Shown here: piece by piece, positions 39,556-57,974 of the stretch | How positions within the stretch are numbered: the stretch's first letter is position 1 | Layout of the letters: the number at the start of each line of letters is the position of its first letter | Assembly: GCA_949752745.1 (NCBI GenBank) | Contig: OX457024.1 | Coordinates: forward strand, 54,810,510 to 54,874,509 | From: Protula sp. h YS-2021 | Taxonomy: Eukaryota; Annelida; Polychaeta; Sabellida; Serpulidae | Direction: 5' to 3' | Length of the DNA: 64,000 nucleotides | Notes under the pieces: model-generated | What the model saw: the letters and a program-made list of their open reading frames with translations, nothing else | The model's database searches: none | What the model was told of the DNA's origin: nothing | Program-made: the position numbers and the translations under genes

Positions 39556-39790
39556 TACATGGTTAGAGCTCACCTATAAAGCCCCCTTAAAGTCAAAAAG
39601 GGGGTACAAAAAAAGGGGGTAAAAAAATCACCCCTTTTTTTCTTTTTTTTTTTTAAAGCATTTCCCACACTCTCATGCATACACATACATACTAACACCA
39701 TGACACGATTAGCGCTTATTTCGAATTAGTGGATGGCCCTTAGAAGGGCCGGCAGGTTTTTGCTGCCAGACTCAGAAAAATTCGAGCACT
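39556..39790. repeat. Inverted repeat of copy B, left arm (about 230 bp)
   Basis: TACATGGTTAGAGCTCACC and the next 210 bp recur inverted at 57,742-57,974 with a handful of differences and different homopolymer lengths. The arm includes GGGGGTA blocks, a poly-T run, ATGCATACACATACATAC, a histone-type hairpin and the last codons of the RING gene found at the other end. Its outer edge abuts copy A directly. Confidence 0.92.
39735..39750 (-). terminator. Histone-type 3' stem-loop, left arm
   Basis: On the minus strand: 6-bp stem GGCCCT / AGGGCC, 4-nt loop TCTA, followed by ATCCA, then GAAATAAG about 14 nt later. Same as at 57,780. Upstream, only the final codons of a coding sequence remain, so this copy has lost its gene. 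Confidence 0.7.
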
Positions 39791-41400
39791 TGAGCACTCG
39801 AGCACCCGAGCACTTGAGCACTCGAGCTCCCGAGCACTCGAGCACTCCCCCCCCCCCCCACCACCACCACCACCAGTCAACTTTCAGACCTGCCGTTGCC
39901 AGCCGCACCACAGGCCACTCTATGTATACAAGCAATGGCCACTCTTTTTTTTCAGCTTTCTCTCTCGAAACACACACCATGGGAGACTGATAATGGGTCA
40001 GTCGGACAAACGGACACCCGGACAAACGGTCTACCTGGACAAACGGATAGTCGGACAAACGGATAGTCTTTTTTTTTTTTGCCTCTCTCTCCACACGGTA
40101 GCTGGAGGCAAACAAGCAGTCTTTTTTTCGGCTTTCTCACTCTAACCAAGCCATTGCAGCAGCAATTAAAAGAAATGAGCACTCTTTTCCTTAAGGATGC
40201 TATGTTTTAACCACAGAGAGGTCTCCATGCATTGTGGCCATATACAAGCAACAATCCTTTCTTTAAGGCTTTCTCACTCTTCTAACACCTACGGCAACCG
40301 AACAAACGGACACCCAGACACACGGACACCCAGACACGGACACCCAGACACACGGACACCCAGACAGTCAGGTTTTTTTAAAATTTTTGTCTCTCTCTCC
40401 ATCACACCACGGCGTCTGAGGGGCTTTCTCACTCCACACCTTCACTAATCGATTGCCGTAGCAGCAATTAGAAGTGACCTAAATAAGAGACGCTATTTTC
40501 AACCGTGAGAACTCTCTCTCTCTCCCACGCATATATAGGCAACAACAACTCTTTTATTTTTAAACTTTCTCACTGCGTACACACAGAACACCTACGGCAA
40601 CCGGATAAAAGGACACCCGGATAAAAGGGCACCCGGATAAAAGGACATCCGGTTAAAAGGGCAGTCTTTTTTTTATTTTTGTATCTCTCTCTCTCCAAAC
40701 ACACATAACACAACATCAGACGGTTAGACGGACAGATTAAGCGTTTATTTCTCAAGCCTGGATATTTTTAACCCAGGCAGCAATTTGTTTTGCTTTCTCA
40801 GACGGTCAGACAGGCAATGATTTTTTTTATTTTTTAATCTCTCTCTCCACACACATATAACACATCAGACGGTCAGACGGACAGATTAAGCGTTTATTTC
40901 TCAAGCCTGGATATTTTTAACCCAGGCAGCAATTTGTTTTGCTTTCTCAGACGGTCAGACAGGCAATCATTTTTTTTATTTTTAAATCTCTCTCTCCACA
41001 CACACATAACACATCAGACGGTCAGACGGACAGATTAAGCGTTTATTTCTCAAGCCTGGATATTTTTAACCCAGGCAGCAATTTGTTTTGCTTTCTAAGA
41101 CGGTCAGACAGGCAATCATTTTTTTTTATTTTTAAATCTCTCTCTCCACACACACATAACACATCAGACGGTCAGACGGACAGATTAAGCGTTTATTTCT
41201 CAAGCCTGGATATTTTTAACCCAGGCAGCAATTTGTTTTGCTTTCTCAGACGGTCAGACAGGCAATCATTTTTTTAATTTTTTTATCTCTCTCTCCACAC
41301 ACACATAACACATCAGACGGTCAGACGGACAGATTTAGCGTTTATTTCTCAAGCCTGAGTATTTTTAACCCAGACAGCAATTTGTTTTGCTATTTCAGAC
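39780..41400. repeat. Left subterminal satellite region of copy B
   Basis: No gene. It contains GAGCACTCGAGCACTTGAGC-type repeats (39,782-39,845), a 14-C run and CCACCACCA tract, several blocks of GGACAAACGG/GGACACCCGG repeats (40,010-40,060, 40,300-40,370, 40,605-40,665). It also holds at least four full units of about 150 bp (starts near 40,711, 40,861, 41,011, 41,161, 41,311) containing ATCAGACGGTCAGACGGACAG, AAGCCTGGATATTTTTAACC and CTCTCTCTCC. Open frames here are satellite artefacts. Confidence 0.8.
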
Positions 41401-41529
41401 GGGCAGATGGACAGATTTAGCGTTTCATTTCTCATGCCAGGGTATTTTTAACCCAGGCAACAATTTGTTTAGCTTTTTCAGACGGTCAGACGGACAGATG
41501 AGGGGGTATAAATCAATGATTTATAGACT

Positions 41530-41620
41530 CCTTTTTTTTTAGCATTTCCCACACTCTCATGCATACACATACATACTAACAACATGACACGATTCGCGCT
41601 TATTTCGTAATAATGGGTGG
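41530..41620. repeat. Internal duplicate of the copy B inverted-repeat segment
   Basis: AGCATTTCCCACACTCTCATGC through GCGCTTATTTCG repeats 39,656-39,722 almost exactly, 1.9 kb further in. It ends at another histone-type hairpin. So this 3'-flanking block is present at three places in copy B. Confidence 0.85.
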
Positions 41621-41636
41621 CCGCTAAAAAGCGGCC
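41619..41636 (-). terminator. Histone-type 3' stem-loop after the C2H2 gene
   Basis: On the minus strand: stem GGCCGCT / AGCGGCC, loop TTTT, followed immediately by ACCCA, then GAAATAAG about 13 nt later. This is very close to the animal histone mRNA 3' signal (stem-loop plus ACCCA and a purine-rich downstream element). The stem sequence differs from the other three, with compensating base pairs, which supports selection for the structure. Confidence 0.72.
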
Positions 41637-41639
41637 GTG

Positions 41640-42590
41640 GAGGTATTTTCTGCTTTCTCCGCCGGTCCACTTTCTGTCGCTTCCCCTGCCGCCGCTTCTC
41701 CTACTATTTCGCCTTGGCGCCGTCGCCGTCTCCGCCTCTGCCGCTGCCGTCATCCTCCCTACAGCCAGCCTCCTCCTATGCGCTGCTACCGCGGCCCTGT
41801 GTGTCCTGAAACCTCTACCCAGAACGTTACAATAATGGTACTCCGGCTTTAACGCATCTGGGCATGTCTGTTCGTGGACTCGTAGAGAGGTTCCTGCCGG
41901 TAATCCAAAATGACAGAAGCTGCAAAACTGCACATTATCCGCCGTATCCAAAAACTCTACGATATCCTGGAGGGTTGACTTTTTGGAAGAGCCATCCTCC
42001 TGTTTCACGTCAACCAGTTCCACGGTGCAGTCATTATCGGAGGGCGACTGCATGAGGCTGAAGTCCACCTGCGTGAGGTCCGTTATACTGGCGACAGCGG
42101 CTGCTAGCTCTTCCTCAGGAGCTGGTGTCACTGTCTCCGGCTTGGTAACTGTGGCGCTAGGAAGATTTCGCCGTTTGACTACAACTTCTTCCGCCGGAAC
42201 CTTCAAGACAGTGACATCAGCTGCCGTTGGAATCGCTATCGGCGGAGTCGTCAGCGTCGACGTCGTGGCTGCAGCAGGAGTCGCCTTGGCAGGGGTCGCC
42301 GTCGTCGTGGTTGTCGCTGCTGTGGTCCTGGCTGGCCTTTCTTCCTGGCAGGGCGGTGGGTCCTGCCTCCTGTCGAGCAAGCTCTCCCTCCGGCGCTTGT
42401 ATCGTTCCTCCGCCGCCCTGCCAAACCGGTTGAACTCTTCTTCAGGTCTGTTCCTGAGAAAATTCCTCCACTGTCGAAACAGAAATGTTTGATATTCTAT
42501 ATAGATATCTTCCCAGAGATCTACATCCTTCTGCGACAAGAAGTAGCAAGCCCGAAGCTCTGGCGAGAAAAATTCATCTTTGTGTTGCAT
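41640..42590 (-). CDS. Zinc-finger accessory protein with Thr/Ala/Pro-rich linker, copy B
   Basis: The frame runs from 42,590 to 41,478 (370 codons), but the histone-type hairpin lies inside it, so the true end is probably near 41,640-41,660. N-terminal 75 residues are charged and helical (FLRQWRNFLRNRPEEEFNRF). Then follow a Thr/Ala/Pro-rich low-complexity linker, an LQDIVEFLDT motif and a C2HC-type finger (CSFCHFGL...HEQTC) with a degenerate second one. The end is basic and Ala-rich. LQDIVEF resembles the last residues of the RING protein. A TATA-like GTATATTAG lies at about 42,652-42,660. Function unknown. Confidence 0.6.
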
Positions 42591-42659
42591 TTTTAGCTGT
42601 TACTCCTTCAATGATCAAAGGCAGACTGACTGCATACAGTGCGAGGCTGCTCTAATATA

Positions 42660-42765
42660 CAGGACCTCCCCCCCTGGTCAGTCGACCTGAAGCAAGGACC
42701 CCCCCCCCTGGCTCACCAACTATTTAGCCGCTGGGCTCACGGCTCAGTAGTATAAAAACGTCGGG
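42660..42765 (+). promoter_or_regulatory. Poly-C blocks and TATA box before the acidic gene
   Basis: Two poly-C blocks, one following GCAAGGA, are the inverse of the GGGGTCCTTGC repeats at 56.94-57.13 kb. TATAAAA lies at 42,751-42,757, about 45 bp before the ATG at 42,802. Confidence 0.6.
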
Positions 42766-42801
42766 TCGACACCACTATGGCCATTGCATTGCCAAACCAT
42801 C

Positions 42802-43863
42802 ATGGAGACGTCTCGAAAAGCAGCAACGGCTAGCAACATGGAAATTGATAGCCTGTTCAGCAATGAAACAATGGCTTTTACAGATGCAGTTTTAACTGCA
42901 GAGGAGACTGCTACCTTCCTAAGTACACTAGCAGAAGCTGAAAAAGCCTTGGAGGAAGCATTAGGGGCTCCGTCAGACGTGTCTACAGTACAGCAAACTA
43001 GGCCTGAAGAAGTACAGCCAGTACAGCAAGCAATGCCCGATCCCGAGGGATCTGACTATCCGTTCTGGGTTGCCAATGCGCTTGTAAATGGTAGCGCCAA
43101 GCCACTTAGTACAAAGTTAAAGGCTCATCTAGAGCATCTTGAGGAGGAAGAAGTGGTCATGTCAAGCGATGACGACGGTGACGACGTCAATGACGACAAT
43201 GACGACAACGACGATGACGACAGCGACGACGATGACAAGCAGCTCAAATCTAAATTCGAATTGAGCAAAACTATTCCTGTTACTGAGGAAGACGTCACAC
43301 TGTTGAAACGAAACTTTCAAGCAGTGATTCCTCTGATCGATTGCAACATTTTATGGTGTTTATGTGAAGAAGGCTTTTTCGATCAGCACACATACTTGTA
43401 CCTAACGGAAGAAGTGAACACTGTCATTCAGCTTATCTACATGCTAGAAGGAAACATAGAGCATCTTCCCGCGTCAGAGCCGCAGTTCTCCGAAGCCATG
43501 ACCCGACGTTTCGTTCAACTAATTCGAAGTCTTCATGAGGAACTTTTTAAGACTTTATCTCTACCGAAGCCAAAGTGTGTTGATGAGGATCGCGATTCCA
43601 AATGTGCAAAGGTTATGCTACATGGCTTCAAGTACCTTGAAGAACGTATTAAGGTGTATGATATGATGGCTTACCTCTATGAAAAAGGACATTTCACCAT
43701 GCCAATGCTCTTTCAACGGATAATTGGGAGTCGCAAACGAGGAGACTTTTTAGTGATTGTTATGAGACAATCTTTGACAGACGGTTTGCCATCAGCCTTT
43801 CTGGATAGTTTCAACGAGATCACTCCACGATTTTGCAAGCATCTCATGAAAACATACATGTAA
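42802..43863 (+). CDS. Acidic protein with two CARD-like death-fold domains, copy B
   Basis: 353 residues from METS, the start conserved in element C. Residues 1-110: unrecognised, helical. Residues about 115-145: an Asp-rich tract. Residues about 155-245: a helical domain with ILWCLCEEGFFDQHTYLYL, fitting the CARD helix 2-3 pattern (hydrophobic, EEG, turn, Tyr). Residues about 265-353: a second, clearer one, with MMAYLYEKGHFT, then RKRGDFLVIVM and AFLDSFNEI, which fit CARD helices 3 to 6. CARD domains assemble apoptosis and innate-immune signalling complexes. The assignment is by pattern, not by search. Copy A lacks this gene; element C has a near-identical one. Confidence 0.6.
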   Translation: METSRKAATASNMEIDSLFSNETMAFTDAVLTAEETATFLSTLAEAEKALEEALGAPSDVSTVQQTRPEEVQPVQQAMPDPEGSDYPFWVANALVNGSAKPLSTKLKAHLEHLEEEEVVMSSDDDGDDVNDDNDDNDDDDSDDDDKQLKSKFELSKTIPVTEEDVTLLKRNFQAVIPLIDCNILWCLCEEGFFDQHTYLYLTEEVNTVIQLIYMLEGNIEHLPASEPQFSEAMTRRFVQLIRSLHEELFKTLSLPKPKCVDEDRDSKCAKVMLHGFKYLEERIKVYDMMAYLYEKGHFTMPMLFQRIIGSRKRGDFLVIVMRQSLTDGLPSAFLDSFNEITPRFCKHLMKTYM

Positions 43864-43869
43864 TGTCCA

Positions 43870-43905
43870 TATAAAAGGAGTGAGGTGTCAAGTGCAGTCA
43901 TCATT
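43870..43905 (+). promoter_or_regulatory. TATA promoter repeated three times in the window
   Basis: TATAAAAGGAGTGAGGTGTC followed by AAGTGCAGTCATCATTC starts 8 bp after the acidic gene stop. The same module occurs at 62,670 and 63,959. The GCAGTC about 30 bp after TATA could be the initiator. Confidence 0.65.
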
Positions 43906-43917
43906 CAACGCGCAGCC

Positions 43918-44538
43918 ATGGAGAAGACAAGCAGCTTTAAAATTAGTGCAAACTTAACCATTACTGTGGAGCATGGACAATTTGGATTATTTATTCGAAT
44001 CAAACGTGGAGAGAGATGGCTTGCTTTATCACCATCCTTGTGGAAGATTGTGTGCCTGAACTTAGCAAGATTACGCGACATTGGCTTCAAACTGTACTTA
44101 AGGCAAACGAAGTGGCTTGAAGTCATTTCATACTTTGATATGCGCTATGTGAGTTTTGTGCAAGCATCACTGTTTGAAGGGAAAGAATATACGCGTTACA
44201 TCAACATGAATGATAGTGAATGGGAGACATTGCTTCAGGAGATGGATAGCATTAACTCAACCTTATTGCCATGTACGGAATGTCATGGCAAGAAAACTCC
44301 TATCAAGCTGCAAAAGGACAATCGGATGAAAGTGTCAAAGTTATCTAAGAAAAGACTGGCTGAAGTTCAATTGGAGAATATGGATGTGCAAAATCAACTT
44401 GGACTTACCTGTGAATATTGCGGTGCTTACGGATATGCTGAGGATTATGATTGTCACTGCCACAAGTACAATTGCAAGTTGTGTGAACCAGACAACTTCT
44501 GCAACAAGTGCGGCTTACTAACTGTTTCTGTGGAGTAA
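43918..44538 (+). CDS. PC4-like plus zinc-cluster accessory protein, copy B
   Basis: 206 residues from the ATG at 43,918; the longer frame begins before the predicted transcript start. Close homologue of copy A 37945-38583: same N-terminal strand-rich repeats (FKISANLTI, SPSLWKIVC, YINMNDSEW) and C-terminal Cys/His cluster (CEYCGAYG, CHCHKYNCKLC, FCNKCG). Copy B has a Tyr in place of one Cys of the first knuckle seen in copy A. Intact. Probably binds nucleic acid. Confidence 0.68.
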   Translation: MEKTSSFKISANLTITVEHGQFGLFIRIKRGERWLALSPSLWKIVCLNLARLRDIGFKLYLRQTKWLEVISYFDMRYVSFVQASLFEGKEYTRYINMNDSEWETLLQEMDSINSTLLPCTECHGKKTPIKLQKDNRMKVSKLSKKRLAEVQLENMDVQNQLGLTCEYCGAYGYAEDYDCHCHKYNCKLCEPDNFCNKCGLLTVSVE

Positions 44539-44602
44539 GACTGAGAGTCATTTGCTTACCAGCCGCCACAGTGTGCAGACGTGTTATATGGACATGTGAA
44601 AG

Positions 44603-44890
44603 ATGGATGTAGAAACGTGTTTTAAGGACAAGTATGTGGACTACATGATAAGTGAACTGGCACGTTTTGGATCTATTCAACAACAACTGCAACACTTTGA
44701 CATTTATTGGGAACTTGCTCATTCCACGTTGAACGTACCAAACTTACGCGAGGATTTCATCAAAGAGTGTATGTTTTCAAACATTGGTGGAGCTGAGGAG
44801 TTTGATGTGGAAGCAGCATATCACTTCGCTCGATTTGATCCAAAACTGTTTGATGAAGTGAGAGAGTGGTTAATCTACATTGCAGTATAA
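44603..44890 (+). CDS. Small helical accessory protein, copy B
   Basis: 95 residues, mostly helical, no named domain. It aligns with two copy A genes (38664-39053 and the broken 37591-37920), making a three-member family. Its TAA overlaps the ATG of the next gene (TAATG at 44,888-44,892), so the two are probably translated from one mRNA. Confidence 0.6.
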   Translation: MDVETCFKDKYVDYMISELARFGSIQQQLQHFDIYWELAHSTLNVPNLREDFIKECMFSNIGGAEEFDVEAAYHFARFDPKLFDEVREWLIYIAV

Positions 44891-45222
44891 TGGTGGACAT
44901 TACATTGAGACAATATATTGTGCAAAAAACATATTGTGAAGAAATGTTATTAGCTGTAAAAAAGTTTGCATGTTTAGTATGTCCTGCTTGTCAAAATGAA
45001 GAGTGTTCAGAACATATGTGTCATTCTACATGTGTCTATACATATTGGAATGAAGCTAAATATTACATTCATTTAGATAAAGTGTTAGATAATGCAAATC
45101 AACGTTGTGAAAAATATGGTGTAGATGCTATCACATTTGATGAATTAAGTAGCTGGTTAATATACATTGAAGATCAATGGACTCCAATTATTCACACCAT
45201 TGTATCAATACTTGATTTGTAA
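44890..45222 (+). CDS. Cys-rich small accessory protein, copy B
   Basis: 110 residues from the ATG that overlaps the upstream stop. Same Cys cluster as copy A (CPAC, EC, HMCH, C) and the same C-terminal helix. Intact in both copies and always directly before integrase, so probably functional. Role unknown. Confidence 0.7.
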   Translation: MVDITLRQYIVQKTYCEEMLLAVKKFACLVCPACQNEECSEHMCHSTCVYTYWNEAKYYIHLDKVLDNANQRCEKYGVDAITFDELSSWLIYIEDQWTPIIHTIVSILDL

Positions 45223-45347
45223 GACATGTTGATAAAAATAAAATTTAAGATGTGTTGATAAAATGCAAGATATGTGATAAAATGTTAGATGTGTTGATAA
45301 AATAAAATGCAAGATATGTTAACAAGTGTTGATCATTTAGTGTTAAC
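45223..45347. repeat. Short GTTGATAAAATAAAATGCAAGATAT repeats
   Basis: Four degenerate copies of a unit containing GATGTGTTGATAAAAT and GCAAGATATG fill the gap before integrase. They supply several AATAAA signals for the upstream transcript. Confidence 0.7.
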
Positions 45348-46448
45348 ATGTCGACGTGGAAAGACTACTTAACCAATATTTACTTTAAACCTGGTCAACC
45401 CGGGGCATTTGCTGGTCCTTACAAACTTTATCACATATTAAAAAAACATGATCAGCCAGTCACTCATTCACAAGTAAAGAAATGGTTACAGGATCAAGAT
45501 GCCTTCAGTTTACTACAACCTGTAAAATATAGGTTTAAAAGGCAACGTGTCATTACACGTGGAATTGATGACATGTGGGATATTTATTTAGCTGACATGG
45601 GAAACATAGCTTCCTATAATGATGATACCCACTTTTTATTGGTTGTCATTGATGTGTTTTCCAAATATTTATGGGTGCAACCATTACCTAATAAATCACA
45701 TTCCAGCGTCATAGAAGCCTTTCAAAAGATTTTTCAAGAAACACAACGAAGACCACGAACTCTAAGGTCAGATAAAGGAACTGAATTTAAAAACAGATGG
45801 GTAAAAGCATTTTTGAAGAAGGAGGGAATACATGCCTATACGACAAAGAATGAAACCAAAGCCAACTTTGCTGAGAGAGTCATTCGTACTCTAAAGGGAA
45901 TGATGTATCGATATTTCCTTCATAATCAAACGTATCGATATATGGACATCCTTCCAGACTTAGTGTATAATTATAACCATAAACCTCATGGCTCCGTCCC
46001 TAATAAGTATGCTCCTGCAGATATTCGTAAAGACATAGAATCGAAAGTGTGGAAGTATATGTATGTAGACAAATTGAAATTAAAACCAAAGAAGAAAAAA
46101 CTCTACAAATTTAAAATTGGTGATCAGGTTCGCATTTCTCACATGAAATATGTATTTCAACGGGATTATCATATAAAGTGGACGCAAGAAGTGTTCACTA
46201 TCACACATCGTTGTAAGAAGCAAGGAATACACTTGTATCGTGTGAAAGACTTTTTGGATGAAGATATTGATGGACATTTTTATGAAGAAGAACTGCAGAA
46301 AGTGACAAAAGATATTGAATCAGTCTACAGAATTGAAAAGGTCTTGAAAACACGAAAAAGACGAGGTGTTAAAGAATTATTTGTGAAGTGGTTAGGTTGG
46401 CCAAAGAAGTTTAACAGTTGGGTGAAAGAAACAGATATTCGAAAATGA
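45348..46448 (+). CDS. Chromodomain integrase, copy B: open frame but catalytic Asp lost
   Basis: 366 residues, full length, no stop. Core residues: the second Asp (RSDKGTEF) and the Glu (NFAERVIRTL) are present. The first Asp, three residues after Trp in WDIDLADM of copy A, is Tyr here (codon TAT at about 45,590). That residue binds the catalytic metal in all retroviral-type integrases, so strand transfer should be abolished. The C-terminal chromodomain is intact (YRIEKVL...KWLGWP). The stop overlaps the ATPase start (ATGA). Confidence 0.93.
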   Translation: MSTWKDYLTNIYFKPGQPGAFAGPYKLYHILKKHDQPVTHSQVKKWLQDQDAFSLLQPVKYRFKRQRVITRGIDDMWDIYLADMGNIASYNDDTHFLLVVIDVFSKYLWVQPLPNKSHSSVIEAFQKIFQETQRRPRTLRSDKGTEFKNRWVKAFLKKEGIHAYTTKNETKANFAERVIRTLKGMMYRYFLHNQTYRYMDILPDLVYNYNHKPHGSVPNKYAPADIRKDIESKVWKYMYVDKLKLKPKKKKLYKFKIGDQVRISHMKYVFQRDYHIKWTQEVFTITHRCKKQGIHLYRVKDFLDEDIDGHFYEEELQKVTKDIESVYRIEKVLKTRKRRGVKELFVKWLGWPKKFNSWVKETDIRK

Positions 46449-47104
46449 AGCATCCATTCACGTGTTTGGTCTCTGGACCTACAGGCAGTGGTAAAACTTC
46501 TCTAGTTAGAGAAATTCTAGAACAAAAGTTAATTAAACCCTCTCCAAAAACCATTTTATGGCTCTATGCAGCAGATCAGCCTTTGTAGAAGGGAATTAAG
46601 GGTGTGGAATTTTACCAAGGCATTCCAGATAACATTGAAGAGCGTTTTAACCCGAAAAAACCAAACTTACTCATCATTGATGACTTAATGACTAAATGTC
46701 ATAGTGATGAGCGCATGACACGTCTCTTTAGTGTTGGCAGCAGTCATCAAAATCTAAGCATTATTTTTATTGTGCATAATTTGTTTCATCATGGTAGAGA
46801 AATGCGTAATATTAGTTTGAATACACATTACATCATTCTGTTTAAAAATCCTAGAGACAGTCAACAAATAAGTACATTAGCGCGACAAATGTATCCTGGA
46901 AAATCTCAATTTCTCATAGAAGCCTATCAAGATGCTACCAGCAAACCTCATGGCTATTTATTCATTGATTTGAAGCCGAAGACAAATGATCAACTACGTA
47001 TTCGTACAGGCATTTTACCAAAAGATACACATTATGTATATGTTGATAAGGTGGCGTATGAACAAGAACCAAGTCATTTAACCATTCGCAGTCAAGATGT
47101 CTAA
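46445..47104 (+). pseudogene. A32-like packaging ATPase, copy B, one stop
   Basis: Starts MKHPFTCL with Walker A GPTGSGKTS, then an in-frame TAG at 46,586-46,588 after 47 codons. The rest (46604-47104) stays open, with Walker B LLIIDD and the SIIFIVHN segment. A short insertion relative to copy A (ATSKPHG near residue 178) is in frame. One substitution therefore inactivates the gene unless the stop is read through. Confidence 0.9.
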
Positions 47105-47423
47105 ACGTATTCAAGCGAATCAACCTTTCCTTCACTTGCTTGCACGCAGCGGGCCTAAACGACGTAAATCCTTGCTACAACAAGCTACTAAGGAGGAATT
47201 AACTAGCTTGTTTGAAATTTGTTTGAATATATTGCGGGGACATTTACCCTTAAGCTCAAAAAGGTATAAGTTATTCAAGCGTGAACGTCATACCCTACGT
47301 ACACTGACAAATAAGAAGATATCACTTCGAAGAAAAAAGAAGTTGGTTAATCAGAAAGGAGGATTTATTGGAGCTATTGCTAAATTTGCATTACCCTTGT
47401 TAGCTCAGTTGCTGTTAAAATGA
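47097..47423 (+). CDS. Basic protein with C-terminal amphipathic helix, copy B
   Basis: 108 residues, about 90% identical by eye to 34258-34584. Same QKGGF followed by a hydrophobic Ile/Ala/Leu tail. It overlaps both neighbours by 4-8 bp. Intact in both copies, so it was under selection until recently. Confidence 0.65.
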   Translation: MSKRIQANQPFLHLLARSGPKRRKSLLQQATKEELTSLFEICLNILRGHLPLSSKRYKLFKRERHTLRTLTNKKISLRRKKKLVNQKGGFIGAIAKFALPLLAQLLLK

Positions 47424-47951
47424 AACATACTTTGAAAATGGTTCTCATTCCTGAATATGAATATAAAATGTTGTTAGAAAAGAAGGGAAAAGATGTCGAA
47501 ATCAAAACGAAAGTGAATAAACTTTTACGTGGGAAACGAACTCGTGAAAAAGCAATAGAAATGTCTCAAGTGCTTGGACGTCATTTACGAACAATTCAAT
47601 CACAACAACAGCGACAAAAGTCTGTTGCAGCATCTAATGCAGAAAAATCAGAAAAGTCCCAACAGTTCTGGCAGAACTTAAGAAATATGGTATGAGATGG
47701 ACAGATAAAAATGAACAGGTACTGTCATTACAAATTCTAACATTATTGATTTGTTGAAAGAAGCATTGATTGCTACAAAAAGAAAAGAACGACGAGAACC
47801 ACCGCGTGGTTGGAAGCAGTTTATTGAGGAAATTGTAGACGCTAATATTCCAAAAACTGTTTTTGGCAAAAAGACAACTCGTGAAGATATTACAAAAGAG
47901 CAACAACAACGTCAACAAAGATTGTTTCCAGAAGGATGGGAAACTTTTTAA
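47420..47951 (+). pseudogene. Polinton-conserved protein of unknown function, copy B, broken
   Basis: 47420-47695 gives the N-terminal 91 residues, basic and helical. 47751-47951 gives the C-terminal part with the conserved EPPRGWKQFIEEIVDANIPK. Between them the frame is disrupted by small deletions (about 47,640-47,755). Same locus and order as the broken copy A gene. Function unknown. Confidence 0.6.
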
Positions 47952-48145: not shown

Positions 48146-48195
48146 AGTAATATACATATCTAGTCTATCTACATCACATAAACGATTTAGCTGCA

Positions 48196-49286: not shown

Positions 49287-49314
49287 AAAAAACATAAGAA
49301 AGATTTTTTTAATC

Positions 49315-50688
49315 ATGTCTTTAATTCATGATCATTCTTGTGAATGTAGCCTTTCTCCATTAGAATGGTTTCACATACCACCAACGCAAACTGCTGTAGA
49401 AAAAAGTTATAATGTAGACTATCAACCAATGACTACCATTAGAGAGGGTGCTCCAATAGAATTCTACATTCCTGCGAGTACAGAAGAATATCTAGATTTA
49501 AAGAACAGTAAACTCCATATTGTATGTCGCATTGTCAAGGCTGATGGAACACTGTGTGGTGTAGATGATAACGTGTCATGTATCAATGATTTGTTTAATG
49601 GGTTATGGTCCAATGTTGAATTATTTCTAAATGATCGTTTGATATCACATAGTAACAATACCCATGGTTATACCAGCATCATATCTCATCTCATTCATGA
49701 CTCGGAAGAAAGTCTCAATTCTGAGCGCTCTATGCGTCTCATCTATAAAGATACTGCCGTGTCAATGAATACTCATGAGGTGAAAAGACCTAATCATGAA
49801 AGATATGTATCAGGTTTTCATGTAAATATTGAAGGTGGTGATATAGCTGAAACAGGAAATAATGGTTTACATAATCGCTATTTGTATACACGTCTAAGCC
49901 GTGAGTTTATGCTTACAGGCGGTTTAAGGGTAGATTTGTTTGAGCAGGATCGTTATCTTCCCAATGGTGTTAGTATGAAATTACGTTTACATAGACAAAA
50001 AGATGGATATGTATTAATGGCTGCAAATAATGGTTTTAAAGTAGAAGTGAGAGAAGCGTTTTTAACCATTCGCAAAGTGAGGGTTAGTCCAGGTACTCAG
50101 TTGGGACACGCAGATGCATTGATGAAAAGTCCTGCTAAGTTTATTGTTAATAGAAAAGAATGTAAAGTTTTAGCTATTCCAACTGGATTTCAATTTTTTG
50201 TGAAAGATAGCATCTTTTTAGGCCAATTACCAAAGCGTATTGTCATTGGAATGGTCCATAATGAATCCTTTGCTGGAACAGTATTGAGAAATCCATACAA
50301 TTTTGAACATTTTAATCTTAACTTTATGCAGCTTTACTCTGATGGTGAACCAGTCCTATCCAAACCTCTCAAGCTTGATATAAATCAAGGCAAATATCTT
50401 GATGCTTTTGAAACTCTTTACAAATCTTTTGATAGATTGGATGGTGAGAAAAGTTCCATTATAAAACGGGAAGATTGGTCTAGAGGTTATTCTTTGTTTT
50501 CTTTTGACTTAACACCTGATTATGATGGTGCTGATCATTATGCCCTTATCAAACATGGGAATTTGAGACTAGAAATGAATTTTGCTGGTGCCTTGCAAAA
50601 TACAGTTAATGTTATAGTGTATGCTGAATTTGATAACATTGTTGAAATAAGTGCAAATCGTAGCATTCAATTCGACTACCAGTCATGA
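49315..50688 (+). CDS. Major capsid protein (double jelly roll), copy B, intact
   Basis: 457 residues, single frame. It opens with a short Cys/His-containing N-terminus, then the conserved block EKSYNVDYQPMTTIREGAPI and strand-rich sequence throughout, as expected for a hexon-like double jelly roll. It lies between the pVI-like gene and the protease, overlapping the protease start by 4 bp. Copy A homologue has a frameshift and a stop. Fold assignment rests on length, order and family resemblance; a structure prediction would confirm it. Confidence 0.82.
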   Translation: MSLIHDHSCECSLSPLEWFHIPPTQTAVEKSYNVDYQPMTTIREGAPIEFYIPASTEEYLDLKNSKLHIVCRIVKADGTLCGVDDNVSCINDLFNGLWSNVELFLNDRLISHSNNTHGYTSIISHLIHDSEESLNSERSMRLIYKDTAVSMNTHEVKRPNHERYVSGFHVNIEGGDIAETGNNGLHNRYLYTRLSREFMLTGGLRVDLFEQDRYLPNGVSMKLRLHRQKDGYVLMAANNGFKVEVREAFLTIRKVRVSPGTQLGHADALMKSPAKFIVNRKECKVLAIPTGFQFFVKDSIFLGQLPKRIVIGMVHNESFAGTVLRNPYNFEHFNLNFMQLYSDGEPVLSKPLKLDINQGKYLDAFETLYKSFDRLDGEKSSIIKREDWSRGYSLFSFDLTPDYDGADHYALIKHGNLRLEMNFAGALQNTVNVIVYAEFDNIVEISANRSIQFDYQS

Positions 50689-51122
50689 ACACGAAGCAGA
50701 TAGAAGCCATCCTATCCCATGATGCCACGACAAAAGACTTGTTTCAAGGTGTGTTTGCCATGGACCAGTTACCATCTTTACAACGTGGTGCCTATGTCAT
50801 CAACACAGACGATCATGATGAGCCAGGAGAGCATTGGGTGGCAGTATATTATGATGAAGACCCTGCAGAATATTTTGACTCTTATGGACTTTTACCTATA
50901 GACAGTCGTTTGAACAAGTTTTTAAACTTTAATTTCATTTATAATTCAGTTCCATTACAAACACCGATATCCTCTACATGTGGATTTTATTGTGTGTATT
51001 ATATAATTCAAAGAGCTCGAGGACATAGTCCTTTTGAAATCATTGATGTATTAAGAAGAAGTGATGGTGATTTTGTTGTAAAGGATTTTGTATATAGACA
51101 TTATAAACCATTATTTTATTGA
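50685..51122 (+). CDS. Adenain/Ulp1-like cysteine protease, copy B
   Basis: 145 residues, all catalytic positions kept (GEHWVAVYY, EYFDSYG, LQTPISS, TCGFYCVYY). About 80-85% identical by eye to copy A, with differences concentrated between residues 75 and 125. Last late gene; AATAAA follows at 51,189. Confidence 0.92.
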   Translation: MNTKQIEAILSHDATTKDLFQGVFAMDQLPSLQRGAYVINTDDHDEPGEHWVAVYYDEDPAEYFDSYGLLPIDSRLNKFLNFNFIYNSVPLQTPISSTCGFYCVYYIIQRARGHSPFEIIDVLRRSDGDFVVKDFVYRHYKPLFY

Positions 51123-51272
51123 TGTTGTATTAGTTAAGTTGCATTTGTTAAGTTGTTGGTAATTGTGAACTGTATTATGAATATTGTAAATAAACAAGAC
51201 AGTTTTATACAACATTCTTTTTTTATTGTGTTATACATTATTTACATTTCACAATTATTTTACATTGAATTT

Positions 51273-51780
51273 TTATTTTACAAATACATTCAATACATCA
51301 ATAAACACATGCCATTCATACCAATCTAAATTAATATATGTATCATAGACATTACATCCACGTTTGTAAATGCTATGAAAACTAGCATAACACTGTCCAC
51401 TACCAAACTTTATTATTTTAACATCTTCATGTTCAGACAGTTTCAGTTCATATCCATGATCATTCATGTCAATGTTCATCACCATAACACACATGGGATG
51501 CGTCAGTTCAATGGACTTGGTGCCTCGCATGAGTTGCACTCCTTCCTCTTTGAATTCAAGCCTTAGGTCACACGCACTTCTAATTCATTTGAGACTGTCA
51601 GGAGAAAGCCAGGTATCCTGAACTTCTCTAGATGGTCTTTCAACACAGATTGTTCGTCAGTTGATAGAATGATATACTTTCCAAAATGTCTTAGCACAAT
51701 GTCATCATATACGTTTCTCAGATATCAGAATCCATGCGTAATTGGTTTATATTCCGATAAAAAGTCTTCCATCTCGTTCA
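51273..51780 (-). pseudogene. Two early PC4-like genes, fused and broken, copy B
   Basis: The C-terminal part (51273-51539) matches copy A 29847-30212 from about its residue 39 onward. The rest (about 51,560-51,780) matches 29603-29836. A deletion of about 125-130 bp near 51,560-51,575 removes the boundary between the two genes. A TGA at about 51,725 (TCA in copy A) interrupts the first gene. Neither product is expected to be made. Confidence 0.7.
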
Positions 51781-51826
51781 ACAGTTAGATGAACTATGAG
51801 CTGTCTCCTTGTCTGCAAAGACGTTT

Positions 51827-52198
51827 TTATGCTCGCAAGATGGTGAAGAGTGGATGTTGTATAGCTTCTAGGAATCGTAAGACTGCGCGCCAGTTCTTGA
51901 TATCAAAGAGGATCAAATCTGTATATGGTGTATCTGGCACAACTCCCTTATAATCCTCTGGATAATCCTGTAAAAGATTTCTACAGATTTCTACACGTAT
52001 GTTAGAATCATATTCAGCTACCGTCACTTCCACTTTATTTTCAAGTCTACGTTTAAACCCAGGTTCAAGTGGTATGTTTTTAAAGTCTTTCCACACTTCA
52101 GGTTTAAACCGATGATAGCTTGTCTGAGAATCAAGTATCATTTTATTCCTCTCATTTACAGTAAGGTAAACACCACCGTTCAGCATGAGTGCATTCAT
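51827..52198 (-). CDS. PC4-like tandem-domain protein, copy B
   Basis: 123 residues, nearly identical to copy A 29177-29548 (only a few substitutions). The only early-cassette gene of copy B that remains intact. Same two strand-rich repeats with Trp-containing helices. Probably nucleic-acid binding. Confidence 0.6.
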   Translation of the reverse strand: MNALMLNGGVYLTVNERNKMILDSQTSYHRFKPEVWKDFKNIPLEPGFKRRLENKVEVTVAEYDSNIRVEICRNLLQDYPEDYKGVVPDTPYTDLILFDIKNWRAVLRFLEAIQHPLFTILRA

Positions 52199-52199
52199 G

Positions 52200-52557
52200 T
52201 TTTTACCTTGTTATGAGCCACCTTCTTGTCTACGAAGCCTTTTATCCACTTCTTTCACTTGCTTCTTCAGCATTTTCCATTCAGGTATTGTCAGCAAAAT
52301 TCCCTTTTTCGTTGGACGGTTTTTTCCAGTCCCCTTATCTCTCAGGTACTTGCCACTCCTTCATTGCTTTGTTTCATAATCTTGATATACTTTCCATTTC
52401 CTAGAGAAAGCATTCCATCCCACGACTGTGGTGTTGGCACCGTCTCCACTTTCAATTTCTTGATGGTAGTGGTAGGATTTTTCACTTTTAAGTCTTTAAC
52501 TGTATCTGCAAGAGTATCCATATCAATTGTAGATCTCTTACGACTTTCACGTTCCAT
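52200..52557 (-). pseudogene. PC4/Sub1-like protein, copy B, frameshifted
   Basis: 52342-52557 encodes the N-terminal part through KYIKIMKQSNEGV and then goes out of frame at about 52,345-52,350, where a short deletion removes the NIRK strand. The remaining PTKKGILLT and helix are readable in another frame down to about 52,215. The gene is inactive in copy B. Confidence 0.8.
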
Positions 52558-52614
52558 GTTAACGCTTCAATGTTCACACCTCAAATAACTCTTCCGTTGG
52601 AGGACCTCCCTCTT

Positions 52615-55600
52615 TTATGCTATTGCTTTGTAATGTCCATGCGCTAAAGTGGAATAGCCATCATCCAATACAAATCGCTTGTCGTCATATGGGGAGAGGG
52701 CTATTTTCCTCAACTTCTCCGAGAAAAGCTGGTGACTATGACTTCGAATAATGTGTCCTGTAGCCATCGTTTGAGTTTTCTTGAACAAACTGTCTCTATA
52801 CTGCGCATGTTTAATGCGTCTTTGACAAGCTTGAGTGATGCCTTTAGCTGTATGTTTTTCTTTCCCACCGCACAATAAACTGTACATTTTCGGTCTGAGT
52901 CCAACAAACTCTTCAATGGGGATGCCTGCCGTCTCATCCTTCATTTTCCCAAGCACTTTTTTGTTCACGTTGGAATGTAGGAAGTGATCTGGCGGATAGT
53001 CACTTGTGTCGAACAGGTCAGCATCTTGCTGCATATCCTTGTAGATATCTTCCGTTTCTATGTCGTAACATAGACTGTCGGTGTCGCTGAACAACAACTT
53101 GGCATTGGGATACTTGACCATGATGTAGTTGTAATGAAAGTTGAACATGAGCACTTTGCTGAGGTCGAGAATGGTGAAGCCAACTTGAATGGGTTTATCC
53201 AGAAGCAAGTCCACTTTGCGTAAAGGTACCGCGGTCAAATCTTCGTTGAAAATTTTAAATTTGTGGAAAGAAGGTTTGGCTACAAGTTTCTTGAACAGCT
53301 TTTCCTTGTGAACAAGTTCAACATTGATTCGCTTTCTCACATTTTCCATGGTTTTTGCCAAATACCGAGTTGTTCATCAGTTTGAAGAACTCTTTCTCAA
53401 ATGGGTTCTTGGCCAATTTTCTCTTTTCCGTGTTCAAGGTAATGTATTTCGCCAACCATTTGCTCTGTTCAAACATAATGGCGCGATGAACTTTAGTGAC
53501 TTTCAACCCCAGTGAGACGTACTGTTGTAAATTCCTGTAATGAAGTACATATTTCTTCTTGTCAGACAAGTTAGGAATGAGCTTTTCACTGGGTTTCTCT
53601 TTCATGTTTAGATCTTTCCGCAGCTTCTGACTGTACTCTGACAATTCTCGAACTTTGACACATTTCCGTTCTGGAGCCAGTGGGTAGTGATTATGACGAT
53701 CATGGATTGAATTTGGATATTCTAAATCCACTTCCAAAATGAATCCAATGTCATCATCTTCAGCTACATCCATGAAGTCGAGGGATTCTGGCTCGCTCAC
53801 CCACATAAATCCTCTTTGCGGCATGCTTTGTGACATGGCCCAGCCATACAAGTTGTTTGCGTCGAGGTAATCAGATAGTTGCTTGGTATCTCAGAATTGT
53901 AATCTGCTACGTAGGGATTATTCGCTTTCGCATACTTGTGTGTGATCACAGATATTCCTCCACGTATGCCTTGCTCAACCATTTGATACATGTCAATGTC
54001 ATTGATCAATTCCAACTTCACCTTTGTCGCTTTCAACATTGCATCCCACGACAGTCCTGGTGCTGTATAGTAGTGAGCAGGATCCAATTCATACGTGTTG
54101 AGGCATACTTGACGAAAATTTTCAAACACGTCAGCTAGTAATAACACATCTGATTTCAGGTACAGGTCGTGGTATTCACCAAATGTGGTACAGTTGAATG
54201 TATCCCACACCTTCTGAGCATGCGCATAATCCTCATCGCTAATGTCCTCTTCGCTAAGCTGACTATAAAACTTGTCCTTTGATGGCAGCTGTGTTTCAGC
54301 AAACTTGGATGGTTCATCCACATAATCATAGGGGTACACTCCCTTTCTCAACAACAAATCTTGTTGGTCACTATCGTGAATGTGAGAGGTCATGTTGTAG
54401 AAGTTATCTTTCCTTCTGCTGCAAGGTGGATACCAACTTCTGTAGAGAGGTACTCATGAACTGAAAGCTGTCTGTAAATTTCAGATTGCTCATGGTGAAT
54501 GCAATATATTTTTCAATGGTGTTGGGAATGACTGTAATCGTTTCACCTTTGAATTTCCCAATTTCCTCCATGATCAGGTGACTGTCATAGCCTCGTAAAT
54601 TGTGGAAAAACACGGGAATGATAAAAGAATCTTTATCACCTTGCTGATCCTTTCTAAGTCGGAATTGTAAGTTGCATTCATTGTGCGCTGCTCCACGATA
54701 TTTGCCATTGATATGGTCATGATCTCTCACACGATCTGCTCCTAGAGGTTCATGACAAATGTAGCAATCAACAGCGTTCTTGAAATTCCTTTTGTCTTCA
54801 CGAGTCATCACCATTTCCTTTGGCCGCTCTAAGCCACGTACAATACGATCACGTTCATTCACCATATGGTCTAAAAAGACTTTCACAGCATTGTCTCCTC
54901 GATACACAACTGGTGCACGTGTGTCGTACTGGCTTACAACCACATAGGCAAAGCTGTTTGGACGATGATGTTGATACTTGTCCCCTTCTTCATGCTTTTG
55001 CGTGAAACATTCAAAGTCGGCATAAATCACAAAAGGTGCTCGCTGTTGTTTAGCCACATTCTTGAACTTGATGAAGGGTTCCTTGGGAAATGATAAACGT
55101 TGTGCCCCATTCTTGTCACACACTTCACGATATTTATCTAAAAGATCTTGTCGTACAAACCCGTGAAGACAGTTGAAACAATAAAAATATGCAGCCTTAT
55201 GCTTTGATCGATAAGACATAAGTCTGCTAAAATTCTTGATGAGGCAGTAATGCCTCGTCTTGTCATTGCTAATCAGAAGTAAGTTGATTTCTCTCACACT
55301 GACGTTTCGACTAAGTTGTATTGGAACAACTACATCTTGTTCATATCCAAACACGTTGATGGCTACATCGTTCTCCTTTTCAAACTTTGGAATGTCAGTA
55401 ATTGGTGTCGGAAATGTCATACCCTCTACCTTTAATTCCTTCTCAAATGACTTGTAATGATTCACGCGATTTGGGTTGTTGTCATGAGGGTGAAGGTAAG
55501 CCAATACTGACCACAAGAAACACTTGTTATCATCATTCTTAATGTTTATCACACCTTCTGTTTTCTTCACTTTCTTCGGTAGTGGAACATAACTACTCGC

Positions 55601-56367
55601 TTCTAGAGGAACCAACGTAGCTGTATGTACTTCAATGTACAGTATGTTATCCAATACCCAGCCAGAGCCTTGTCGCTCATGTTCGTCAAACTTGGTAAAT
55701 AATTCTTTATAGGCTTCTGGCAGGTCCTGCTCAATATCTGCTGGATTGTATGCTGCATATGTTGGACTGCTGATAAATGCATTATCCACTTGTTCTACCA
55801 TAACACCTTCATCATTTGCTGTCAGTTTCTTGAAACGTGCATGCACGACAATGTACCATTTCATTCCATGGTTTAAGGTCTCCAACAAATGTGACTTGAT
55901 ACGGTTCTCTTGCTGTCGCATTTCAAGCAGTAAATCTGATCCATCCTCAGATTCAAACCGTTTTTCCTGCGCGTTTTCACCAAGACTAAGCCTTCTACCT
56001 CTCCCTACTTGTCCTGTCTTTTGTTTCTTTGAAACATGTTCTTCATGAGGTGCATTGTCCTTCTCAGCTGGTATGCATGCATGTGCCTCATAAGTATCCA
56101 TAGATGGAAATTTACATTGCATTCCATACACTGTACTTGACCGTATGGCCAAATGTCATCTTCTTCCATCTTTTGTCTCTTTGCTCCTTTCATCTCAGCT
56201 TTACTGCATGTATGTGTCTCATAAGTATCCATAGATGGAAATTTCACATTGCATTCCATACACTGAACTTGACCGTATGGCCAAATGTCATCTTCTTCCA
56301 TCCTTTGTCTCTTTGCTCCTTTCCCATGCTCTTCACTTTTCATCATAGCTAGTTGTTGTTCCGTCAA
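52615..56367 (-). pseudogene. polB: Protein-primed DNA polymerase B, copy B (at least four frameshifts)
   Basis: Reading on the minus strand, open pieces are 56005-56367, 54404-56152, 53797-54393, 53318-53851 and 52615-53361, alternating between two frames. All catalytic motifs of copy A are readable, including YADFEC, HNLRGYDSHL, NNSVFGK and SDTDS. The N-terminus has a 131-132-bp tandem duplication carrying one finger each; a 1-bp deletion in the second copy gives the first frameshift. In the internal finger (about 55,160-55,220), the first His ligand is Tyr (DKYREVC). More decayed than copy A. Confidence 0.92.
56098..56362 (-). repeat. 132-bp in-gene duplication of a C2H2-type finger
   Basis: The segment coding for KGAKRQ, an acidic EEDDIWPYGQVQCMEC and FPSMDTYETH occurs twice in tandem (44 codons each). 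The copy nearer 56,110 lacks one base (TTTACATTGC against TTTCACATTGC). Copy A has two fingers here but with divergent sequence. Confidence 0.85.
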
Positions 56368-56394
56368 CTGCTGAAACTGAAATGCTGAAATGTA

Positions 56395-56425
56395 ATCTCA
56401 GACATACCCCTTTTATACACACTCA
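56395..56425 (-). promoter_or_regulatory. TATA promoter of copy B polymerase
   Basis: On the minus strand, GTATAAAAGG at about 56,410-56,418 is followed by repeated ATTTCAG motifs and the ATG at 56,367, about 45 bp on. The forkhead/octamer array of copy A is absent here. Confidence 0.6.
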
Positions 56426-56466
56426 TACATGGACAGAATTTGCGTTTTCATTTCACAGCAGAGGAT

Positions 56467-56482
56467 GGCCCTTAGAAGGGCC
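56467..56482 (-). terminator. Histone-type 3' stem-loop after the Cys-rich terminal gene
   Basis: Minus strand: GGCCCT / AGGGCC stem, TCTA loop, then ATCC and, 12-14 nt later, GAAATGAAAA, a purine-rich stretch where the U7-binding histone downstream element would lie. It starts 24 nt after the stop of 56507-56860. Confidence 0.72.
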
Positions 56483-56506
56483 GAAAGATGTTAGTGAGTT
56501 GGCTCT

Positions 56507-56860
56507 TCACCAACAAGTCGGATTTCCGCAATTACACTGATATCTGTAAAATTTTTCCATGGAGAACGGTCTTCGTGCACACTTGAACGGATGGAAGTTA
56601 TAGTAGCCAAAGTTTTTCAGCGTCGCACCGCACCACCAGCAGTCCGTGCATGGCTCCGGTCCTGGCAATCTCGCAGTAAACTTGTACCAGAGCAGTCCAC
56701 CGCAAGTTTTGCAGCAGTAATGTCGTGGTGCATTGTGGTGCACCGGGCAGTTGTGTGGTTGACCTGGGTACTCCAACCATACCCAACACTTATAACACTC
56801 AGTCGTTAGCGTCACTGCCTTGCCGTTTCGCATCACTGTGATTTTACGACTTGTCGACAT
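56507..56860 (-). CDS. Cys-rich putative zinc-binding protein, copy B
   Basis: 117 residues with 16 Cys and several His in pairs: CYKC, CPVHH, HYCCKTCG, CTDCWWCG, CARR and CNCGNPTC. The pattern suggests two or three zinc knuckles; no named family is recognised. A TATATAAAG box lies at about 56,898-56,906 (minus), and a histone-type hairpin follows the stop. Present only in copy B. It may be a nuclear regulator (inference). Confidence 0.65.
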   Translation of the reverse strand: MSTSRKITVMRNGKAVTLTTECYKCWVWLEYPGQPHNCPVHHNAPRHYCCKTCGGLLWYKFTARLPGPEPCTDCWWCGATLKNFGYYNFHPFKCARRPFSMEKFYRYQCNCGNPTCW

Positions 56861-56937
56861 CGTGCTGCTTGTGTTGGATAATGCAGCTGTAACCCACCTT
56901 TATATACTACTAGCCACCATCCTCGCATTGTATGCTG

Positions 56938-57135
56938 ACTGGGGGGGGGTCCTTGCTTCATTTCCGCTGCCCAGGAGGGGGGGGTCCTTGCTTCATATCT
57001 GCTGCCAGGGGGGTCCTTGCTTCATATCTGCTGCCAGGGGGGTCCTTGCTTCATATCTGCTGCCAGGGGGGTCCTTGCTTCATATCTGCTGCCAGGGGGG
57101 GTCCTTGCTTCATATCTGCTACCAGGGGGGTCCTT
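56938..57135. repeat. GGGGGGTCCTTGCTTCATATCTGCTGCC array
   Basis: Seven or so tandem units of 28-30 bp with a G run of 5-10 each. The inverse motif GCAAGGACCCCC appears at the other end of copy B (42,690-42,705). Open frames through it are artefacts. Regular G runs could form quadruplexes. Confidence 0.88.
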
Positions 57136-57146
57136 ACTTCAAGTGG

Positions 57147-57203
57147 TATATAAGTGGTAGCCATTTCAGTTCAGGCTCACAACCGCTTTCATCTCTCACG
57201 GCT
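57147..57203 (+). promoter_or_regulatory. TATA box and initiator of the RING gene
   Basis: TATATAAG at 57,147-57,154 is followed 16 nt later by TTTCAGTTC, a TCAGTY initiator, and the ATG at 57,204. The arrangement mirrors the promoters at 24.2-25.05 kb in copy A. Confidence 0.65.
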
Positions 57204-57758
57204 ATGGAGCTCTTCTATGCGTTAAACGATGTTCTCACGGTGAGGGAAGTCAGGGATGTGCAAGTGCCGGTGGTGCCGCCAGCGTTCCAGCCTGAGAGAT
57301 TTTTTTTCTACCAGATGCTGCCGAACCCTGCCAACGCCAAGGTCCTCTGTGTTCCGGTCTTTTTTAACCGGAGGGTGACGCTGGGAAAGCGGTTGGAAAA
57401 TATTGAGCAGGGACATTACGTCGAGGCTTACTTCCGATGCACCATGCTGGGGGAATCGATGCCATCAAGACTTGAGGAGGAAGAGTATCCAGCATGGGGA
57501 AGATTCTTCCTCCAGCAAGACCTCGACATATGTATCTCATGCGGCTGCATGCTCAGTCCTGATCGTGTTATTGCTGTGGATTGCGGCCATCAATCATGTA
57601 TTTACTGCGCTGCAATTTGGACTCACATGACGGCGCTTGCTGATGAATACACGACTGCATGCTTCACCTGCGGACTGAAAACGGATCATTACGTTTTCAA
57701 CAGCCAGCAATTAACACACTGCGCAAGGCCAGTCCAAGACATCGTCGAATTTTTCTAA
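57204..57758 (+). CDS. RING-finger protein (putative E3 ubiquitin ligase), copy B
   Basis: 184 residues. Residues 1-110 are unrecognised, with aromatic and hydrophobic strands. Residues about 117-165 form a C3HC4 RING: CISCG, then DCGHQSCIYC and, after about 17 residues, CFTCG. RING proteins pass ubiquitin to substrates; viral ones often target antiviral or cell-death factors. The final codons (VEFF) lie inside the inverted repeat and are also present, without the gene, at 39,780. A histone-type hairpin starts 21 nt after the stop. Present only in copy B. Confidence 0.8.
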   Translation: MELFYALNDVLTVREVRDVQVPVVPPAFQPERFFFYQMLPNPANAKVLCVPVFFNRRVTLGKRLENIEQGHYVEAYFRCTMLGESMPSRLEEEEYPAWGRFFLQQDLDICISCGCMLSPDRVIAVDCGHQSCIYCAAIWTHMTALADEYTTACFTCGLKTDHYVFNSQQLTHCARPVQDIVEFF

Positions 57759-57974
57759 GTCTGGCAGCAAAAACCTGCCGGCCCTTCTAAGGGCCATCCA
57801 TTAATACGAAATAAGCGCTAATCCTGTCATGGTGTTAGTATGTATGTGTATGCATGAGAGTGTGGGAAATGCTTTAAAAAAAAAAAAAAAAAAAAGGGGG
57901 GTGATTTTTTTACCCCCTTTTTTATACCCCCTTTTTGACTTTAAGGGGATTTATAGGTGAGCTCTAACCATGTA
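57742..57974. repeat. Inverted repeat of copy B, right arm
   Basis: Inverse of 39,556-39,790. It covers the end of the RING gene, the hairpin, the ATACATACTAAC block (inverted), a poly-A run of about 20 and the GGGGGTGATTT/ACCCCCTTTTT blocks. Confidence 0.92.
57780..57795 (+). terminator. Histone-type 3' stem-loop after the RING gene
   Basis: GGCCCT / AGGGCC stem of 6 bp, TCTA loop, then ATCCA and CGAAATAAG 14 nt later. Placement 21 nt after the stop, stem and loop length, the UYUN-type loop and the 3' ACCCA-like flank all match the animal replication-dependent histone signal. Confidence 0.75.

Follow-up and report, generated by a model that had tools for sequence, protein, structure and literature searches.

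Can the genes of a virus-like element end in the manner of animal replication-dependent histone genes? The question is raised by a 64,000-nucleotide (nt) stretch of the annelid Protula sp. h YS-2021 (contig OX457024.1, positions 54,810,510 to 54,874,509), called the window here, which is part of an 863-Mb assembly (GCA_949752745.1; 218 contigs) that contains animal-type histone genes. An earlier reading of the letters alone, the original prediction, described four histone-type mRNA hairpins on virus-like genes in the window and proposed that processing by SLBP and U7 would couple the terminal genes to the DNA-synthesis phase (S phase) of the cell cycle. Our analysis supported this interpretation. 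On the sequence comparisons described below, it is likely that the small end genes of this animal's Polinton elements, and not the core genes, bear a full histone-type 3′ end with SLBP/U7-type processing, this end consisting of a six-pair stem, mostly a UNUN loop, and a purine-rich element 12–13 nt on.

Hairpins and the genes in front of them

Exactly four matches to the Rfam family Histone3 (RF00032, E up to 10) were found in the 64 kb, with 18.9–25.8 bits and E-values of 0.0056, 0.011, 0.075 and 2 over all 4227 families. These are the four hairpins of the original prediction (39,735; 41,619; 56,467; 57,780), and the same four were returned by a strict pattern, which required a fully paired stem of 6–7 bp with a UNUN loop and an AYCC flank. 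AAATRA lay downstream in 4/4. In 300 dinucleotide shuffles the strict pattern occurred 11 times in total (mean 0.037 per window), and never with AAATRA. The hairpins and the two downstream elements mapped individually are as follows.

57780..57795, plus strand: histone-type stem GGCCCU UCUA AGGGCC; RF00032 25.8 bits; 21 nt beyond the RING-like gene's stop codon (ends 57758)
57808..57816, plus strand: downstream element GAAATAAGC, 12 nt past the stem; core identical to that of the host H4 gene
56467..56482, minus strand: histone-type stem GGCCCU UCUA AGGGCC; RF00032 22.8 bits; 24 nt beyond the Cys-rich gene's stop codon (56507)
56445..56454, minus strand: downstream element GAAATGAAAA, 12 nt past the stem; similar to the host H2A/H2B form GAAATGAACGC
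39735..39750, minus strand: histone-type stem, terminal-repeat twin of 57780; RF00032 25.0 bits
41619..41636, minus strand: seven-pair variant stem GGCCGCU UUUU AGCGGCC with ACCC flank and GAAATAAGC; RF00032 18.9 bits

Stem, loop and flank types agreed with the first description: a six-pair stem with a four-base UNUN loop in three hairpins and seven pairs at 41619, UCUA loops in three and UUUU in one, and 3′ flanks of AUCC in three and ACCC in one (AYCC in 4/4). The two distances of 21–24 nt from stop codon to hairpin, and the purine-rich element after each hairpin, were found as described, the latter 12 nt from the stem end in all four (GAAATAAG at three hairpins, GAAATGAAA at 56467). The RING-like gene has the element GAAATAAGC and the Cys-rich gene GAAATGAAAACGC.

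The presence of four hairpins therefore stood, but their independence did not. The hairpin at 39735 is the inverted-repeat twin of that at 57780 (repeat I18, 88%), and the segment at 41.53–41.65 kb is read here as a diverged third version of this terminal stretch, because loci such as L036 (loci fetched from this genome carry L numbers) align to all three. Since three of the four hairpins are related terminal-repeat copies, there are only two independent units within the window. The 41619 stem, put forward as carrying compensatory pairs, is indeed different, but the difference from its twin amounts to one extra G-C pair, that is, one more base per arm. With model R1, made from 26 hairpins (22 Polinton, 4 host), the 57780 hairpin, one of those used to build R1, scored 71.1 bits, and that at 41619, outside the rows of R1, 39.5 bits.

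Three open reading frames (ORFs) are associated with these hairpins. Upstream of the hairpin at 39735 the RING-like gene is reduced to its final codons.

57204..57758, plus strand: RING-like terminal gene, 184 amino acids (aa), C3HC4 cysteine spacing by eye; TATATAA 57 nt ahead of the ATG
56507..56860, minus strand: cysteine-rich (Cys-rich, CxxC) terminal gene, 117 aa, in divergent orientation to the RING-like one; TATATAA 46 nt ahead of the ATG
41478..42590, minus strand: ORF in which two C2H2-like motifs were seen by eye, no Pfam match; gene end uncertain

None of the three gave a Pfam histone match. Pfam RING families matched the RING-like protein below cut-off only (best E 0.11). Predicted structure models were poor (pLDDT, the predicted local distance difference test, 52 and 34), and the top Foldseek matches of the RING-like model were RING domains, all insignificant (best E 0.73). 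Among eight hairpin-bearing element genes tested, a count that leaves out the C2H2-like ORF, six had a TATA box 37–57 nt before the start and L040 had one at 72 nt; in other element genes a TATA box was present within 60 nt of the start in 2/12. AATAAA or ATTAAA was found within 250 nt for 11 of 26 other gene entries and the C2H2-like ORF, and for neither the RING-like nor the Cys-rich gene, counts too weak to use.

Histone genes of the same genome

The replication-dependent histone layout was compared with the host's own genes, namely one fetched quintet (L065) and the H1-like loci on C4. The layout claimed for the window agreed with all five quintet genes and all five C4 loci. The Polinton 3′ ends directly match those that the H2A, H2B, H3, H4 and H1 genes have in this genome. 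The quintet has H2B, H4, H3, H1 and H2A (H4 and H1 named by eye) on one strand, each with a stem-loop 20–46 nt past the stop and a downstream element. Two forms of this element were seen, one in H4 (GAAATAAGC), H1 (CAAATAAGC) and H3 (GAAATAAACGC), the other in H2A and H2B (GAAATGAACGC); both occur in Polinton genes of the window. At 5/5 H1-like loci the stem-loop is followed by an element whose core and spacing are the same. Model R1 detected all five L065 3′ ends (E 1.1e-9 to 0.014, rough values), and a histone-fold search of the genome returned 60 matches, clustered mainly on C7.

Genome-wide, 75 of 158,589 first-look RF00032 candidates were scored, so the following counts are lower bounds. 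Sixty-three of the 75 were above the cut-off, and sorting of the 75 places gave five H1-like genes (by eye), one decayed H2B (L042), one unassigned place (L034) and 68 of Polinton type, of which 54 have one common score (28 of these 54 were inspected). The window-family places L036 (34.3) and L037 (34.2) exceeded 34, with twelve other listed window-family places below it; in a divergent family the RING-like and Cys-rich genes reached 37.4 and 35.9. No match above the cut-off was found in 14 prokaryote control genomes. Two of the sorted places are of separate interest. L042 (G000:C9:38608300-38611400) is an orphan H2A/H2B pair whose frameshifted H2B retains a stem-loop and an AAATGAA-type element, and L034 (G000:C2:55616000-55619100) has a strong histone-type stem with AAAATAAGC and no recognised gene upstream.

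The same 3′ ends in related elements

The expectation that the hairpin would stand at the same genes in related elements held, both in other copies and in the divergent family. Other window-family copies have it behind the RING-like gene and, on the opposite strand, behind the Cys-rich gene. Because the loci were picked by the RING-side hairpin, the hairpins on the Cys-rich side are an unselected sample, and six standard pairs were present in seven of eight, two of them with a G-U pair.

The divergent, high-copy family (family 2) has an integrase (Pfam rve 1.7e-13, Chromo 1.4e-7), ORFs resembling a protease, a capsid protein and an ATPase, and, where PolB would be expected, an ORF of 1397 aa. 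The latter had no Pfam PolB match, just Endonuclease_7 (0.00042), and is named PolB because of its place and the DNA similarity of copy L014 to the PolB region of the window. At one end of the element, four small genes lie on one strand within about 3.3 kb (Cys-rich to 105-aa gene), all four with stem and downstream element, 16–23 nt past the stop.

L050:7344-7658: Cys-rich gene
L054:52-255: 67-aa gene; outer stem pair A-U instead of G-C
L054:862-1395: RING-like gene
L054:2262-2579: 105-aa gene

Between the two families, identity is 58% for the Cys-rich proteins and 25% for the RING-like ones. Neither the 67-aa nor the 105-aa gene hairpin was used to select loci; six pairs were present in 28/28 loci for the former and in 26 of the 27 loci where the region was found for the latter. 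This conservation is weak evidence alone, because most copies are near-identical: 26 of the 28 fetched loci are about 96.9% or more identical to L004 (L004 counted), and the diverged copies L026 and L014 are about 91% identical to it. In L026 the downstream element of the 105-aa gene has switched from GAAATGAGC to AAAATAAGC, the other host form. Unlike the typical histone 3′ end, three of the four family 2 flanks (Cys-rich, 67-aa and 105-aa genes) depart from ACCCA/ATCCA, as do host histone genes here, namely H2B, H4, H3, H1 and H2A of L065. A scan of four family 2 stretches with filters off recovered the four hairpins (that of the 105-aa gene at E 0.1), the remainder being at E of 0.46 or more and uncredited, and scans of the window and the family 2 stretches detected no hairpin at core genes.

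Stem pairing was examined in two alignments. Alignment A4 holds 26 of 30 stretches (excluded were L050, the RING side of L044, L034 and the seven-pair hairpin at 41619). All 156 of its 156 cells were paired, with C-G in 15, U-A in 10 and U-G in one row at pair 4; A4 leans towards pairing because its rows were picked by a stem test. Alignment A5 consists of 15 hand-chosen rows (7 host, 8 element), among which the L036 row, with a UGCA loop, was not chosen by its stem. In A5, 90/90 cells were paired, all 15 rows had six standard pairs, two pairs were changed on both sides, and AAATNA was invariant downstream (15/15). The downstream elements of A4 were AAATAAGC in 14/26, AAATGAA in 8/26 and neither in the other four. 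The covariation score was reached by 0/500 shuffles in the 26-hairpin set and in A5 alike.

No relatives were found when viral contigs were scanned with alignments A1, A2 and A3, with the capsid-like ORF or with the RING-like protein, and the exact histone-hairpin pattern occurred in none of these contigs. Protein searches returned nothing for the RING-like protein at E ≤ 0.01 or for the Cys-rich alignment at E ≤ 0.001. With the integrase 1461 matches were obtained, and among the 120 listed, which come without genomic context, one has an organism name, the pearl oyster Pinctada imbricata (54%). As no relatives were found outside this genome, the conservation described is within one genome, between divergent families.

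Layout of the window

Two Polinton copies lie head to head in the 64-kb window, as positioned from their inverted repeats, and part of a third follows. The terminal inverted repeats are long in both (I18 in copy B; I21 and I25 in copy A). That the genes are virus-like, as first stated, was borne out by a Polinton integrase, alongside PolB and protease matches just under the Pfam cut-off.

39549..57981: Polinton copy B, with the four hairpins; ends from inverted repeats 39549-39785 / 57745-57981 (I18)
~23645-39555: Polinton copy A, orientation opposite to copy B; inverted repeats I21 and I25
from ~61.5 kb: part of a third Polinton copy, from inverted repeats
45348..46448, plus strand: copy B integrase with chromodomain; Pfam rve 2.1e-11, Chromo 3.2e-7
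50685..51122, plus strand: copy B adenovirus-type protease; Peptidase_C5 0.00029, just under the Pfam cut-off
52615..56122, minus strand: copy B PolB, several ORFs; DNA_pol_B_2 0.0012, under the Pfam cut-off
40736..41368 / 40672-41500, minus strand: tandem repeats of about 149 nt (D4, D7) with decayed hairpin and GAAATAAACGC units

The R1 scan detected no hairpin at the copy B integrase, protease or PolB. The labels of the capsid-like and ATPase-like ORFs of the window were given by eye, and Pfam had no match for the capsid-like ORF. The decayed units of the tandem repeats gave five weak R1 matches (E 0.87–1), and these repeats look like eroded versions of the histone-type 3′ end. G-rich repeats of 29 nt (D15, 56979-57153) separate the promoters of the RING-like and Cys-rich genes, which point away from each other. 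A palindrome-rich repeat at 58324-58480 (TGACGTCA, CATATGG) matched Rfam MIR4371 at E 1.6e-8, far under the gathering score, and this match is probably a chance product of the long palindrome.

Discussion

In this study, we found that small end genes in two divergent Polinton families of one annelid genome end like the replication-dependent histone genes of animals: a six-pair stem, a UNUN loop, a short distance from stop to stem, a purine-rich element mostly 12–13 nt on, and ORFs without visible introns. Their products are not histones but small proteins encoded by a virus-like element, RING-like and Cys-rich ones among them. The elements themselves resemble Polinton/Maverick (adintovirus-like) elements in their chromodomain integrase, PolB-like and protease-like ORFs and terminal inverted repeats, and also in ATPase-like and capsid-like ORFs (by eye). 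They differ from Polintons/Mavericks as described in the parts of the literature covered here in having terminal small genes with histone-type 3′ ends. No report of the use of the histone stem-loop or SLBP by Polintons was found in the open-access literature, covered in part, as titles and openings of abstracts, and with subscription papers mostly outside it. Bracoviruses (polydnaviruses) encode viral histones. They are likewise viruses that use host histone-related biology; there it is the protein, here only the mRNA 3′ end.

Taken together, the 3′ ends in the window and in family 2 suggest that these Polintons exploit the host pathway for histone mRNA. U7 small nuclear ribonucleoprotein (snRNP) cleaves histone pre-mRNA 4–5 nt past the stem, and the 5′ end of U7 pairs with the histone downstream element (PMC7026596). 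By analogy, RNA polymerase II would transcribe the compact, mostly TATA-containing terminal genes, host SLBP would bind the Polinton hairpin, host U7 snRNP would pair with the downstream element, and the RNA would be cleaved 4–5 nt past the stem. The product would be an mRNA lacking poly(A) whose synthesis and stability are largely confined to S phase, and the small, putatively regulatory proteins it encodes (RING-like, Cys-rich) would be present during host DNA synthesis. We infer SLBP/U7 use, the absence of poly(A), the coupling to S phase and the roles of the proteins from sequence features. On balance, we favour, with less assurance than the use of this pathway as such, a division within each element, in which as many as four regulatory genes at its end may be on the histone mRNA pathway and expressed in S phase only, with the core genes on ordinary poly(A).

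Several observations weigh against the borrowing of this pathway. Copy A has core genes but no hairpin in RF00032 and R1 scans, and neither terminal gene was recognised among its ORFs. Within the window no RF00032 match attains the gathering score of 34, all four being below it, and matches below the cut-off (E up to 10) also occur in 14/14 prokaryote control genomes. The C2H2-like ORF runs through the 41619 hairpin, and no TATA box was found for it; L044 and two of two host H1-like genes have none either. The hairpin is broken at the Cys-rich gene of L045 (1/8) and has a mismatch at the 105-aa gene of L018 (1/27), and the four A4 rows with neither element form include three near variants (L038, L046, L049) and one, L037, that is not. 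The covariation signal comes mainly from one pair, with relatedness not controlled for, and at least as many pairs with both sides changed were obtained in 463/500 shuffles for A4 and 25/500 for A5. All comparisons are inside one genome. An AATAAA (L054:365-370) follows the 67-aa gene, about 110 nt beyond its stop codon. Finally, RF00066 (U7) matches were present in 12 of the 14 control genomes as well, and the best U7 candidate of this genome, L056 (29.9 against a cut-off of 34, E 0.057; U7-like by eye), is not relied on here: taken as U7, its pairing with the host or Polinton elements was no better than that of shuffles (246 and 250 of 1000).

As an observation on the 67-aa gene by itself, the AATAAA downstream of it is a possible poly(A) back-up.

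Three other explanations were considered, each of them less likely than the borrowing of the histone-mRNA pathway. The hairpins might be 3′ ends of histone genes that were captured with host DNA and are now functionless. Their closeness to the host signals, their position in duplicated, decaying terminal repeats and the breakage of some element genes of the window into several ORFs would all fit such relics. However, the pattern recurs at four distinct genes of family 2 and at two of the window family, and it has been kept between families whose Cys-rich proteins are 58% and RING-like proteins 25% identical. The stem has also been retained despite changes on both sides, in L026 the downstream element has switched between the two host forms, and none of the element genes was recognised as a histone gene. 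We therefore regard relics as unlikely.

It seems similarly improbable that the hairpins are generic terminators or RNA-stability hairpins that resemble those of histone genes by convergence and use neither SLBP nor U7. Mimivirus transcripts follow a hairpin rule, which offers a comparison, and the hairpins here do lie close behind stops and near element ends, where stopping transcription helps. A simple terminator, however, would require neither the UNUN loop, nor the mostly GG..CC stem ends, nor AAATRA at a fixed distance, and these together are the host histone pattern. Least probable of all, and given very little weight, is a role of the hairpins as DNA features of terminal repeats in protein-primed replication, packaging or recombination. 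Three of the four window hairpins are in related terminal sequences, as such a role would have it, but the hairpin at 56467 and the four of family 2 lie behind genes and in gene direction, the family 2 four all on one strand, and the flanks are strand-specific.

If elements of this genome do borrow the pathway, they would represent the first virus-like element, and their small end genes the first set of non-histone protein genes, dependent on histone-type 3′ end formation. The histone 3′-end pathway would then be open to hijack, and Polinton gene expression would acquire a cell-cycle clock. The terminal genes would in that case be a place to study how Polintons sense or steer host DNA replication.

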